A DNA stretch of 64,000 nt from Synechococcaceae cyanobacterium (GTDB lineage: Bacteria > Cyanobacteriota > Cyanobacteriia > PCC-6307 > Cyanobiaceae), in contig CANCJV010000005.1 in the NCBI GenBank assembly GCA_947378425.1, positions 1-64,000 of the forward strand. The letters are read 5' to 3'. Positions 302-6,334 of this stretch are shown here, piece by piece (within the stretch, counting starts at the first letter, position 1; each line of letters starts with the position of its first letter). The notes below the pieces were generated by a model that had not been told where the DNA came from, did no database searches, and saw nothing but the letters and a program-made list of their open reading frames with translations. The position numbers were made by a program, and so were the translations under genes.

Positions 302-910
302 TCAGTTCACGATCTGCGGCTGACCAGGACCAGTCTGCCTGACCAGCACATCAGAACACACTTTGCGATAGGGACTATCAGCGCTGAAATAAATGCCTTG
401 CTTTTTGGCCTCACCACATCGCAGCAGGCGGACCAGTTCATAATCCAGACGGGCCTTGTCGGCTTCAGCCTGGGCTCGCTCCGTTTCGACACGGGCTCGA
501 TCTCTGCAGAGCGTCTGCAGCGATTTATCCAGCGGCAAGGACAGCCCGACGGTGAAGCCTGGATTGAGAACGTTATTGGTGAACGAATTTGGATCCGTAC
601 TGTAGGTGGAGTTACCGTACGCGAATCCCTGGATATTGAAAGTGGCCGACTGACAGCTGGTGCCACCGCCGTAGGTGTTGACCGCGTAGGGCCCCTGTAG
701 AACCTGGACCGCCTGGTTGGTGACAGCACCATTGGCCGTGGCCTGCGGACCGGCGATGTTGGTGTTCGTGGGTGGCTGCTGCTGAGCATGGCCGGCCAGC
801 TCCAGTCCCAGCAACTGGAGAGCAAGAAAAACGGCCCAAGAGAAGCGTTGGGCCAGGAAAGATTTCCGTCCTGAATGATTCAGGAGCCGGTTCGTCTTCT
901 GGGGATGCAT
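302..910 (-). CDS. Exported hypothetical protein, possibly phage-related
   Basis: Function is not recognised. The start at 910 (MHPQKTN) is preferred over an in-frame Met 11 codons upstream because it puts a basic N-terminus before the hydrophobic stretch FSWAVFLALQLLGLELAGHA, which reads as a signal peptide cleaved before QQQ. The mature part is Asn/Thr/Gly rich (VLQGPYAVNTYGGG), followed by a helical Arg/Glu/Ala segment and a C-terminal section with two Cys (RCGEAKKQG and YRKVCSDV). From memory, the VLQGPY...YGGG...C pattern resembles uncharacterised proteins of marine cyanophages; this is unverified. It is the last of three leftward exported-protein genes. Confidence 0.6.
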   Translation of the reverse strand: MHPQKTNRLLNHSGRKSFLAQRFSWAVFLALQLLGLELAGHAQQQPPTNTNIAGPQATANGAVTNQAVQVLQGPYAVNTYGGGTSCQSATFNIQGFAYGNSTYSTDPNSFTNNVLNPGFTVGLSLPLDKSLQTLCRDRARVETERAQAEADKARLDYELVRLLRCGEAKKQGIYFSADSPYRKVCSDVLVRQTGPGQPQIVN

Positions 911-1056
911 CAGTGGGCGATACCAGACGAAGCCATCAGCCAATCGAGATACGTGAACAAATAAACCTGGAACAATCAGACTGCCAAGAAAAAGGCTTTA
1001 ACGATGACGCCATCAGTAAGCCAACCCCAATCACAGGCACGGATACAAAATCTCGC

Positions 1057-1500
1057 TTACTGGTTGAAGACCGATGTGGAAGTGGTGGTGGAGGTCTGGG
1101 TTGTGGTGCGATCAATGGCCGTTTCCCTGAAAATACCGGGACCGTTGTAGGTCTCGGTCAGCTGGAAAGCCGCACCGGGATTGATCACGGAGTAGGAGGT
1201 TCCGTAGCAGAGAGTCCCAACTCCCGGCACGCAGGTGGGCGTGGCAATGGCCGTGGTGCCATTGCCGGGCACGGATACGGGAATCGGCGCTCCCGTATCG
1301 TTGGAGCGGACGTTGACACCGGTGACCACGTAGGTATAGCCGTTGGAGTAATCCTGCTGACGAATGACTTCGTTAACAGTCGTCGTTGACTGGGTGGTGG
1401 CAGTAATTGTGCCACTTGTGAACGTGGGCGTCACGGGCGCGGCTATCGCCGCGCCAGCAACACCCAATACACAAGCCCCGGCGGTCAGGGAGCGGAACAC
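1057..1500 (-). CDS. Exported hypothetical protein, paralogue of its upstream neighbour
   Basis: This is a 147-residue protein starting at GTG. Its signal peptide (FRSLTAGACVLGVAGAAIAA) has an Ala-x-Ala end near residue 20. The mature protein is Thr-rich and low in charge. Two segments, YVVTGVNVRSND and SYSVINPGAAFQLTE, align with YAVSGVNVTASGD and AFTITNPGQEFNLSE of the preceding gene, so the two are diverged tandem paralogues. The start is only 3 bases after the neighbour's stop, which implies co-transcription and possibly translational coupling. The residue pattern suggests a beta-rich surface or periplasmic protein; no family is recognised. Confidence 0.65.
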   Translation of the reverse strand: MFRSLTAGACVLGVAGAAIAAPVTPTFTSGTITATTQSTTTVNEVIRQQDYSNGYTYVVTGVNVRSNDTGAPIPVSVPGNGTTAIATPTCVPGVGTLCYGTSYSVINPGAAFQLTETYNGPGIFRETAIDRTTTQTSTTTSTSVFNQ

Positions 1501-1503
1501 TTC

Positions 1504-2034
1504 TTAGAAAGCGGTTAGGGAGACAGTACGACCAGCCGTGACAGTGGTACCGACGCCACCACCAGTGATGGTCATGGCCTGTGTCAGGGTGTTGATGGTA
1601 GCCGCTGCTGTTGCAGGGGTAGTACCAGAAGTGATATTACCGCCAACCTGAGAGGTGACAGTTCCATATGTAACAGGAGCGACTTGGCCCGAAGTAACAA
1701 CCGTAGGAGTAACTATTGCGTCACCAACAAGGAGCTTCTCGGAAAGGTTGAACTCTTGGCCGGGGTTGGTGATAGTGAAGGCTGTGGGGGCGGGAACTGC
1801 AGCCGCAGTTGCGCTAAGGCCAGTAGCAGTTGAGAGACCAAGATCACCTGAGGCTGTGACGTTCACCCCGGAAACCGCATAGCTCGTCCCCATCCGCGTG
1901 GTCTGCACGGCCGCTCCCTGCACACTGATCCCGACCGAATCCTGAATGGTCGAAGTGAAACCATCCGCCAAGGCGGGCAGCGACATCATGGGAACGCAGA
2001 GGAGAGCCGAAGCGCCCAGAATCTTTTTCAGCAC
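1504..2034 (-). CDS. Exported Thr/Ala-rich hypothetical protein
   Basis: This 176-residue protein has a clear signal peptide (MLKKILGASALLCVPMMSLPALA, cleaved before DGF). The mature protein is Ala/Thr/Val/Gly rich with almost no Lys and no Cys, as expected for a beta-structured envelope protein. It shares the GVNV and NPGxxFxLxE blocks with the gene just downstream. It is probably the first gene of the three-gene exported set, because about 200 noncoding bases lie upstream. No known family is recognised. Confidence 0.65.
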   Translation of the reverse strand: MLKKILGASALLCVPMMSLPALADGFTSTIQDSVGISVQGAAVQTTRMGTSYAVSGVNVTASGDLGLSTATGLSATAAAVPAPTAFTITNPGQEFNLSEKLLVGDAIVTPTVVTSGQVAPVTYGTVTSQVGGNITSGTTPATAAATINTLTQAMTITGGGVGTTVTAGRTVSLTAF

Positions 2035-2241: not shown

Positions 2242-2565
2242 CTAGGGGCTCAGCCCCTCATCCGACCAATCCCCCGGATCCGGCGCATCGGAGCCGGGGC
2301 AGAGATTGTCGACCAGATAACGCCAGCGGGTCACCAGAACCGGATTGTTGAGCTGGAGCCCAGCCACGACAGCACCGGACGACAGCTGCAGGATCTCGGC
2401 CATGGCCTGGGTGGCGGCCTGTTCGGCCTGAGCAACGCTGAGCCCCTGGTTTCGGATGGTGCAATAGGCCGCGGCGCCAGCCTGGGCCGGGTCGTTGTTC
2501 CATTGCGCCTGGGCCAGCTCCGGGGCCGCCAGCAGCATGGCGGCGATCAAGAGTGGGTACCGCAT
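2242..2565 (-). CDS. Small exported hypothetical protein
   Basis: The protein has 107 residues. The start at 2565 (MRYPLLIAAMLLAAPELAQA) is chosen because it yields a typical signal peptide with cleavage after AQA and places the start 7 bases after the upstream stop; a longer frame would overlap the neighbour. The mature part has two Cys (AAYCTIRNQG and DNLCPGSD) that could form a disulfide, and a helical region with AQAEQAATQAMAEIL. Small secreted proteins of this kind are common in picocyanobacteria; no function is assigned. Confidence 0.65.
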   Translation of the reverse strand: MRYPLLIAAMLLAAPELAQAQWNNDPAQAGAAAYCTIRNQGLSVAQAEQAATQAMAEILQLSSGAVVAGLQLNNPVLVTRWRYLVDNLCPGSDAPDPGDWSDEGLSP

Positions 2566-3415: not shown

Positions 3416-3891
3416 ATGAATGGAAGCAAACTATACAGGGCTCACTCCATCGCCCAATCCTCTCAGCAGCGCGCCGAACGGCCAATCAGCATCCTTTCTG
3501 ACAGCAGCCTGGCGCCTGCCAACCTCCCTGAGCCGCTGATGCGCTCCGGCCGGGCACAGACTGAACCGGTGAATCGTGCCCTGGGATTGAATACGACAGC
3601 GGACCGTGCGGCCATGCCGGCAGGAGCAGCGATCAACGGCAGCCAGGTCAAGCTGCTCCAACAGCGGCACCGACCGATCCCCCTTCAGGTTGCCAACGGT
3701 TGTCCAGCAGGACAGGAATGGGGCCGCTCGGGTCTGCCCGTCCGGCCTGACCGGAGCCGGAGTCGGCATCGGGATCCGGCGCGGCAGCCAGCCCGGATGT
3801 GGCCCCGATCGCTTTGGTGGAGGAGGAAGCACGCCATCAGCCTCATGGTGCAGCAGCAGGCTGCTTACAGTGGAAGATCTGCTGTGCGTCC
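3416..3891. other. Intergenic region between divergent genes
   Basis: About 475 bases separate the leftward membrane-protein gene from the rightward regulator. Open frames here on both strands lack any protein-like composition or family motif. It should contain the promoters of both genes, but I could not identify convincing -35/-10 elements by eye. Confidence 0.4.
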
Positions 3892-4221
3892 ATGACTGAG
3901 CGCGGCCTCCCCGATCGGCCTCCGGCTCCCCGGCCGGCCCAGGCGATTCCAGCGTCGTTGCAGCTTCGGCACGACCTCTCGGAGCGGGAAGTGGAGATCA
4001 TCGAGCTGGTGGCCACCGGCCTCACCAACCAGGAAATCGCTTCCCAGCTGATGATCAGCAAGCGCACCGTCGATAACCACGTCAGCAATATCTTCACCAA
4101 GACCGGCGCCAAGAACCGGGTAGCCCTGCTCAACTGGGCCATGGACAACGGCAAGATCTGTCGCGACGGCTTCAACTGCTGCTCGCTGGACGGCCCCGAG
4201 GCCGCCCGGAACGCCGGCTGA
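3892..4221 (+). CDS. pedR: PedR-like small LuxR-type redox regulator
   Basis: This 109-residue protein consists almost entirely of a LuxR/NarL-type helix-turn-helix: LSEREVEIIELVATGLTNQE, then IASQLMISKRTVDNHVSNIF and TKTGAKNRVALL. It has no receiver domain. After the HTH comes NWAMDNGKICRDGFNCC, with conserved cysteines. This layout matches Synechocystis PedR (Ssl0564), a small LuxR-type regulator that responds to photosynthetic electron flow through thioredoxin-dependent cysteine chemistry. The start at 3892 (MTERGLPDRP) is used because sequence upstream of it in the same frame is not protein-like. The N-terminal 25 residues are Pro-rich. Confidence 0.7.
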   Translation: MTERGLPDRPPAPRPAQAIPASLQLRHDLSEREVEIIELVATGLTNQEIASQLMISKRTVDNHVSNIFTKTGAKNRVALLNWAMDNGKICRDGFNCCSLDGPEAARNAG

Positions 4222-5365: not shown

Positions 5366-6334
5366 TCAGTTGTGGGAAGGCTCGACGCTGGTGAGACTGC
5401 CGGCCCAATGCAGCTTGCGGGTGAGGGTGCGGTAATAAGAGGGACTCTGCTCCAGCAGCAGCATCAGGGCCGGATGGGGGCCGCGCTGCACGATGCAGCG
5501 ATCGCCGGGCTCCAGCACGGTGGCATGGGCCCCATCTTTCCAGAGCTTCACGCGCCGGCTGCTCTCCCCCAGGGGCCAGACCGTCAGCCGTGCCCGCGGC
5601 GGCACCACAACCGCCCGGCTGGAGAGGCTCATCGGGCAGATCGGATTGACGACGATCGCCTCGATGCCGGGATGGAGGATCGGCCCGCCGGCCGCCATCG
5701 CATAGCCCGTGGAGCCTGTGGGGGTGGCGATGATCAGGCCATCGCCGCGGTATTGATCCACCACCTCGCCGTCGATGTCGAGCTCCAGCACGCAGGTGGG
5801 GGAGACCTCATCGAGGCAGGGGCGGAAATAAAAATCATTCAGGGCGCCGTGGGGCCCCTCGGCCGCCACATCGGCGGCGGCGCCGTCGTCGTCGTGACGA
5901 TCGCCATCGCCAGGCTGGGGCACGCCGTCACCGCGGTCGATACGGGCCTCGAGCATCATGCGGCGCTCGAGGGCGAAGCGATCGTCCCGCAGGCGCTGCC
6001 ACAGGGTGTCGTCGCCATCGAGGCGCAGCAGGGCCCGGTCATGGGTGAGGAAGCCCAGGTGGCCGCCGATGTTGAAGCTGAGGATCGGCACCTCAAAACG
6101 GGCCAGATGGCGCGCCGCTCCCAGCACCGTGCCATCACCGCCGAGCACCAGGGCCAGGTCGGGCAGGCCGGGCTCGGTGGCCAGCAGGCCCGGGAAGGGA
6201 TTGGCGGCCAGGCCACAGGAGGCCACCGTGACCTTGACCCCCTGCTGGTGGAGATCCTCGGCGCAGCGCCTGGCCTGGCGCTGCGCCGCCTGGCTGCCAA
6301 GGCGCACGATCAACCAGATCCGTTCAAGCCGCAT
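5366..6334 (-). CDS. nadK: NAD kinase
   Basis: NAD kinase phosphorylates NAD to NADP with ATP or polyphosphate in the cytoplasm. At 322 residues the length is normal. Diagnostic motifs are [13 protein letters not shown] (GGDG catalytic motif, Asp), [10 protein letters not shown], and [15 protein letters not shown] in the NAD-binding C-terminal domain. An acidic insertion rich in Asp/Gly (about residues 130-150, DDDGAAADV) interrupts the fold and is not seen in bacterial standards I recall. The gene follows ndhE on the same strand and is probably the distal gene of the ndhAIGE transcript, a sensible pairing since NDH-1 and NADP supply are both tied to photosynthetic electron flow. Confidence 0.93.

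Follow-up and report, generated by a model that had tools for sequence, protein, structure and literature searches.

Three adjacent genes at the edge of the window (the whole 64,000-nucleotide stretch of a Synechococcaceae cyanobacterium contig analysed here) correspond to the gene clusters T4-GC 237, 236 and 235, arranged in the order and orientation that they have in T4-like cyanophages. We hold it very probable that this cassette is of phage origin and has been retained by its host. The best overall reading, to which we give a probability of about 0.45, is that the cassette serves late opening of the cell envelope in phages and was captured and kept by a cyanobacterium. If true, this would supply a function for one of the most widespread hypothetical gene clusters of cyanophages.

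Three putatively exported proteins and their neighbors

The three reading frames are open at the coordinates that an earlier note on this DNA had given, all on the minus strand, with 3 bases between the members of the tandem pair (GC237 and GC236). The features discussed below are:

1 to 149: end of an IS element, probably lying between GC235 and a GC234-like gene outside the window (contig C32:457-1266); the repeat occurs elsewhere in the genome
302 to 910, minus strand: GC235-like putatively exported protein, 202 aa; phrog_848 (E 2e-42) and phrog_1755 (E 7.6e-39); 460 phage records by tblastn
1057 to 1500, minus strand: GC236-like putatively exported protein, 147 aa, second of the tandem pair; Pfam DUF6322 (PF19847) at 63.1 bits, curated cut-off 30.6; phrog_650 (E 6.5e-31); 377 phage records by tblastn
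1504 to 2034, minus strand: GC237-like putatively exported protein, 176 aa, first of the tandem pair; phrog_564 (E 4.1e-15); 28 cyanophage records by tblastn
2242 to 2565, minus strand: small exported-looking protein, 107 aa; orthologues in L015 and L016
2573 to 3415, minus strand: bestrophin-like membrane protein inside the inserted block; Pfam Bestrophin-like at E 2.5e-4, below the curated cut-off
3799 to 4221, plus strand: LuxR-type regulator, left flank of the insertion; adjoins metF in all 12 of the fetched genomes that lack the block

The tandem pair are paralogues, as had been proposed from the GVNV block (SGVNV and TGVNV) and the NPGxxFxLxE block (NPGQEFNLSE and NPGAAFQLTE) that they share. 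Profiles of 85 and 81 sequences align over 97 columns in hhalign with a probability of 97.8 and E 8e-13, and GC236 profiles also match the GC237 gene at 6.4e-5 and 1.3e-5. In GC235, the VLQGPY...YGGG pattern that had been linked to marine cyanophage proteins belongs to a genuine family, within which it is the most strongly conserved stretch. Of the signal peptides claimed for the pair, the hydrophobic N-termini are there, as 19-residue stretches with a mean hydropathy of 1.91 (GC236) and 1.89 (GC237); GC235 carries a 12-residue hydrophobic core of hydropathy 2.07 followed by GHA-QQQ. From this hydropathy, rather than from a signal-peptide predictor, we infer that all three proteins are likely exported.

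The 107-aa protein travels with the block in three host genomes and matched neither a PHROG family nor a phage. Its bestrophin-like neighbor is 79% identical to a protein at the same locus in the genome G472; such proteins form a paralogous family in the genus, with at least one match in 16 of 21 genomes. What we take to be a LuxR-type regulator was named from its own sequence rather than by a family search. It resembles the gene often called csgD, and curli-like secretion was considered for that reason. We rejected this candidate, as there was no family match and neither 'csgG' nor 'curli' was found in Sullivan et al. 2010 (PMC3037559). A defence system was likewise set aside: a single Cas4 row, at E 0.045, was taken as noise.

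A cassette shared with cyanophages

All three proteins belong to PHROG families by whole-protein profile matches, and by name the tblastn records come from Synechococcus and Prochlorococcus phages, from cyanophages and from a small number of marine or uncultured viruses. The suspected phage ancestry is borne out by family matches, hundreds of cyanophage records, a common gene order and a rooted tree (below). The outcome that the note had named as refuting its idea, no phage relatives and no common fold in the pair, did not occur: phage relatives were found, and the pair is homologous by comparison of profiles, not of folds, the structure models having covered GC236 and GC235.

In P-SSM2 and S-ShM2, T4-GC 237, 236 and 235 are adjacent and GC234 follows on the opposite strand (PSSM2_239-242 in P-SSM2). 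Across 242 loci with a match, a count that includes overlapping loci and host loci, 213 have the order GC237, GC236, GC235 and the rest hold one or two of the three. The window copy differs from the phage cassette in that it sits on a bacterial chromosome, probably with an IS element between GC235 and the GC234-like gene, and in that GC236 and GC235 do not overlap and the motif NTAAATA is absent upstream. Clusters 218, 219, 234, 235 and 237 are described by Sullivan et al. 2010 (PMC3037559) as a cluster of hypothetical genes that shows signs of mobility and occurs in all the cyanophages of that study except S-PM2. We found no function for the T4-GC cluster in the literature searched, a scope that excludes most subscription papers.

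Annotated neighbors of the cassette in S-H38, S-ShM2 and P-SSM2 are replication or metabolism genes, with no annotated lysis gene in the stretch around it in these three phages. In DSL-LC03, two annotated endolysin genes lie within 5 kb of the cassette, the only such case among the four.

The fourth gene links host and phage blocks weakly. At a cut-off of 1e-5, a profile of two host GC234 proteins matched in 30 of the 118 dereplicated phage loci, located downstream on the same strand in 12, downstream on the opposite strand in 10 and upstream in 8. In DSL-LC03 the gene has the host arrangement, downstream on the other strand (E 1e-21), and in S-H38 it is far away. At 1e-5 the profile matched nothing in P-SSM2 or S-ShM2; compared directly, the host proteins matched the GC234 proteins of these phages at E 7e-6 and 0.001 (four sequences, no composition correction), and phrog_9426 at 2.1e-4 and 6.3e-4. 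All four phage GC234 proteins scanned have one transmembrane (TM) segment in the C-terminal half; host GC234 has none at threshold.

Insertion into the host chromosome

Two lake genomes carry the same genes at the same chromosomal place (L015, JAPLIB010000153.1; L016, CAMBZX010000080.1). The cassette is preceded there by ndh genes, NAD kinase, a CYTH-type gene, the LuxR-type gene, the bestrophin-like gene and the small exported-looking protein, several of these presumptive names having been assigned by eye, and is followed by a GC234-like gene on the opposite strand. In our genome the contig end at 1-149 is an IS repeat that recurs at five other places (C28, C59 twice, C21 and C8) and breaks the assembly. 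The opposite end of this IS opens contig C32 (1-147); behind it come a GC234-like gene that shares 64% identity with its L015 counterpart, and then metF. Because these are two ends of one IS, it probably lies between GC235 and the GC234-like gene here. The outer flanks of both ends read TAGGTG, possibly a target duplication.

The block sits between the LuxR-type gene and metF, the latter forming the right flank on C32. Empty sites were located through metF, the bestrophin-like gene being unsuited to this use because of its paralogues. Searches of 21 genomes located metF in 20, and 13 of the loci were fetched. Twelve came from genus members lacking the cassette, and in all of these metF stands immediately next to the LuxR-type gene; the thirteenth came from the carrier G472, which has metF on another contig. 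Among the 42 genomes of the genus, three have GC236: this one, G472 and G488. Reading frames and tblastn showed host-type genes on both sides and no integrase or virion genes adjoining the cassette in the assembled sequence outside the IS gap, as would be sought in a prophage. A contaminating phage contig was rejected for this genome by the shared locus in L015 and L016 and by the empty sites.

Composition, selection and direction of transfer

The cassette genes have a G+C content of 53-60%, against 69-72% in the NAD kinase and CYTH genes. Host copies are mostly under purifying selection: pairwise dN/dS is 0.06-0.13 in GC235 and GC236 and 0.10-0.22 in GC234, with a value of 0.35 in GC237 from the sole unsaturated pair. 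Between this genome and L015/L016, dS reaches 1.2-1.9 in GC235/GC236 (window positions 305-1500) and about 0.4 in NAD kinase (5369-6334). This excess counts against our preferred reading, since a single vertical history does not explain it simply; it may reflect repeated acquisition, recombination or codon bias.

In a concatenated tree of 97 rows with a midpoint root, the host copies and 37 phages form one group, opposed to the remaining 57 (support 100/100). A GC235 tree of 58 rows rooted on T7-like phages nests the host copies among T4-like rows: L061 falls outside a 52-row set that holds them (95/85), and a 46-row set that holds them has support of 91/99. In this tree the T4-like rows were thinned, G664 forms a very long branch apart from the other outgroup rows, and the bootstrap had not settled. 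The host copies likewise fell among phages when cellular relatives served as outgroup in an earlier GC235 tree, although that tree had branches near 10 and a support of 91. The nested position and the empty sites together lead us to favor transfer from phage to host.

Gene overlap and a late-type promoter motif in phages

Taking as the GC235 start the nearest possible start codon upstream of the hydrophobic core, GC235 begins inside GC236 in 115 of 119 phage loci, 113 of them in the same relative frame, with a median overlap of 139 bases over all 119; the core itself starts before the GC236 stop codon in 102 of the 119. The host genes lack this phage-type overlap and are separated by gaps of 146 bases here and 155 in L015. 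Gene overlaps lead gene callers to miss or shorten spanin genes, according to PMC6139136. The annotated GC235 genes of S-H38 (L002:9049) and P-SSP7 (L308:6660) start 3' of the region matched by tblastn, so that the signal sequences appear to have been lost from both annotations; in S-H38 the annotated start also lies downstream of the hydrophobic core.

Upstream of the phage cassette we detected a recurrent motif. In the 100 bases 5' of GC237, NTAAATA occurs in 74 of 95 phage loci (13.2 expected on average, with a maximum of 22, in 200 first-order resamplings) and CTAAATA in 41 (2.2 expected); the reverse strand has them in 43 and 10 of the 95. The last motifs ([AC]TAAATA or CTAAATG) number 71, and 45 start at -35 to -26. 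NTAAATA is found 5' of GC236 in 5 of 87 loci and 5' of GC235 in 2 of 116. One such motif stands upstream in each of S-H38, DSL-LC03, P-SSM2 and S-ShM2, though not as CTAAATA in S-H38 and DSL-LC03. A late promoter of S-PM2 has been published as NATAAATA (PMC2984593), and the cassette would accordingly be a candidate for late expression in phages. Our genome has no NTAAATA 5' of GC237.

Position beside terminase in T7-like phages

In P-SSP7 the order is tail fibre genes, a one-TM protein, a two-TM protein, GC236 (noted as a possible SignalP in the record), GC235, a small ORF, the small terminase and, further on, the large terminase. These genes (PSSP7_042-045) resemble the window cassette in having adjacent GC236 and GC235 homologues, with the one-TM protein, GC234-like by resemblance, and the two-TM protein in front; they differ in that GC237 was not seen and in forming a single phage operon that ends in the small terminase. 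The contig from G066 runs from tail fibre through a GC234-like gene (phrog_9426), a membrane protein (phrog_2714/721), GC236 and GC235 to the small and large terminases, and the same T7-like order recurs on phage-like contigs among the matches in family genomes.

The two-TM protein belongs to a family of unassigned function (phrog_2714/721), in which a hydropathy scan of four members found a single segment in three and no segment in the other. Of the 204 viral loci with GC237, 152 also contain an ORF that matches the profile of this family, at a median distance of 2.9 kb, a raw count in which chance proximity is uncontrolled. On the G664 contig, a homologue (a small membrane protein) stands directly before GC237, followed by GC235, with a GC234-like gene on the opposite strand. 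That contig (L301, G664:C13:3000-20000) is low in G+C and looks like a third kind of phage.

Coliphage T7 keeps the holin gene 17.5 and the spanin genes 18.5 and 18.7 around the terminase genes 18 and 19. Gene 17.5 is named as a holin in PMC8365609. By analogy, GC236 and GC235 of T7-like cyanophages would lie near where T7 keeps its lysis genes.

Structure models

Both structure models are weak. The GC235 model (pLDDT 68.5, pTM 0.41) has one confident helix, 129-170, and the GC236 model (pLDDT 68.4, pTM 0.33) has two very long strands. Against the PDB, GC236 had no match at E 0.001 or better, the best being 0.053, with phage tail parts and pore-forming toxins in the top rows; VIA gave Z of at most 2.7 for GC236 and, for GC235 (VIA only), two helix-only rows with Z of at most 2.6. 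Viral models yielded four matches at E 0.001 or better, the two named ones being from an uncultured phage and Synechococcus phage S-SCSM1. Profile searches with A5, A6 and A7 found no solved chain at E 0.1. GC235 scored 16.6 bits against the OEP/TolC family PF02321, below the cut-off of 22, with 20 of 83 members matching at E up to 1 (best 0.0026). A membrane pore was not concluded for GC236, its long strands being rich in Thr/Ser and outside the windows of strongest alternation.

A candidate lysis function and its rivals

Many cyanophages have no identifiable spanin, for which a perhaps fragile host outer membrane has been considered and another route asked about, as stated by Kongari et al. 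2018 (PMC6139136), whose Table 10 lists 24 spanin-less phages of cyanobacteria. Leaving out A-4L, GC235 is present in 17 of 23 of these: 14 of 20 searched as whole genomes (E 1.9e-39 to 2.8e-94), with S-SM2, S-SSM7 and P-SSM7 added by tblastn. It was absent from the whole genomes of S-PM2, P60, Syn5, S-CBS4, PSS2 and Pf-WMP4, and is therefore not a universal lysis tool. Its presence in most spanin-less cyanophages, both T4-like and T7-like, and its place beside terminase in the latter make the cassette a concrete lysis candidate that is open to knockout.

Like two-component spanins of the Rz/Rz1 type (PMC6139136), the cassette of phages has apparently overlapping genes for putative envelope proteins and, in T7-like phages, a place near a membrane protein and terminase. 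It differs in having neither a lipobox (no pattern match in the first 45 residues of 15 proteins scanned) nor an inner-membrane partner with an N-terminal TM segment (none found among the GC234 proteins scanned). As both hallmarks were looked for and not found, the cassette is not a spanin by definition; at best it would work like one. A late envelope or lysis role in phages is what we tentatively propose. More tentative still is the idea that GC235-GC237, with GC234-type and two-TM proteins, are in many cyanophages the outer-envelope lysis module that had been missing, a lipoprotein-free spanin replacement used by phages of both the T4-like and the T7-like kind. It would probably derive from an envelope system of cyanobacteria and would here have come back to a cyanobacterial chromosome.

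In the reading that we prefer, the phage proteins would act late on the cell envelope: GC236, GC237 and GC235 would reach the periplasm or the outer membrane and, aided by membrane proteins from neighboring genes, help the outer layers to open at release, as spanins do elsewhere. A freshwater picocyanobacterial lineage very probably took up the cassette from a T4-like cyanophage, together with the GC234-like gene beyond the IS, and holds it between the LuxR-type gene and metF under selection. Beside the host cassette no holin or endolysin gene was seen, the overlapping start has been separated, and this genome lacks the promoter motif of the phages; in the host the proteins are therefore probably ordinary exported components of the envelope or surface. 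The host copy shows that a living cell can keep these proteins, and its naturally separated genes are usable for expression.

As for the surface or extracellular structure suggested in the earlier note, export is likely, but the T7-like gene position, the reading-frame overlap and the late-type promoter motif fit an envelope or lysis role at least as well as a structure. A surface or exclusion coat ranks next after lysis, as a rather unlikely alternative in which exported, beta-rich GC236 and GC237 would assemble on the cell surface and GC235 would anchor them in the outer membrane or form a pore there. Phages would use this coat to change the surface of the cells they infect, for example against superinfection, and the host would keep it as a surface layer or phage shield. 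Such a coat would account for host retention under selection without visible lysis genes, and is consistent with the two very long strands of the weak GC236 model, the weak OEP similarity of GC235 (20 of 83 members) with its alternating strand FTVGLSLPLD, and the diverged cellular GC235 relatives beside other small exported proteins; yet alone it leaves the T7-like place between the two-TM protein and terminase unexplained, and it meets low-confidence models with no fold match and no match to a defence family. Because the cassette genes come after the tail fibre genes in T7-like phages, minor tail or fibre-assembly proteins are also conceivable. Tail fibre genes just upstream in P-SSP7 and L303 and the late-type motif would suit this improbable role, which is hard to square with signal-peptide-like N-termini and with annotation as hypothetical rather than structural in P-SSM2 and S-ShM2.

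Still less probable is an origin of the cassette in cells, with later passage from cyanobacteria into phages and the host copy as the older form. Diverged GC235 relatives do exist in several cyanobacterial families, three of them matching phrog_1755, and separate genes could be the older arrangement; against this, the window block occurs in 3 of 42 genus genomes, faces empty sites, has a foreign composition and is nested inside T4-like copies. Phage origin with later capture thus remains the preferred reading for the block itself. The deepest root of the GC235 family may well be cellular, given those phrog_1755 matches, and may have been a cyanobacterial envelope system adopted by phages.

Diverged cellular relatives of GC235

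A first profile found diverged GC235 relatives in 7 of 339 phylum genomes, this genome included and two of the matches weak; those of G101, G126 and G315 match phrog_1755 at 6.4e-9, 5.9e-12 and 1.1e-13. Within the family, GC235 occurs in 12 of 400 genomes, which we classed by eye as three cassette carriers, five phage-like contigs (G066, G593, G659, G664 and G682) and four diverged copies on host-like contigs (G101, G083, G456 and G478). The last two genomes are cassette-free genus-mates (G478:C46:47334-47765 and G456:C8:62548-62775), and the stretches fetched from them gave no GC236 or GC237 profile match.

The chromosomal clusters L278-L281 resemble the cassette in having a GC235 homologue beside small exported proteins; they differ in being very diverged, and three neighbor proteins tested had no PHROG match. 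We found no known function for these clusters. Small exported-looking proteins surround the diverged GC235 at L278:4275-8926, L279:2676-6604, L280:6081-7119 and L281:6569-8097, and several of them end in motifs such as SLTVFDQ or FAQSF that resemble GC236.
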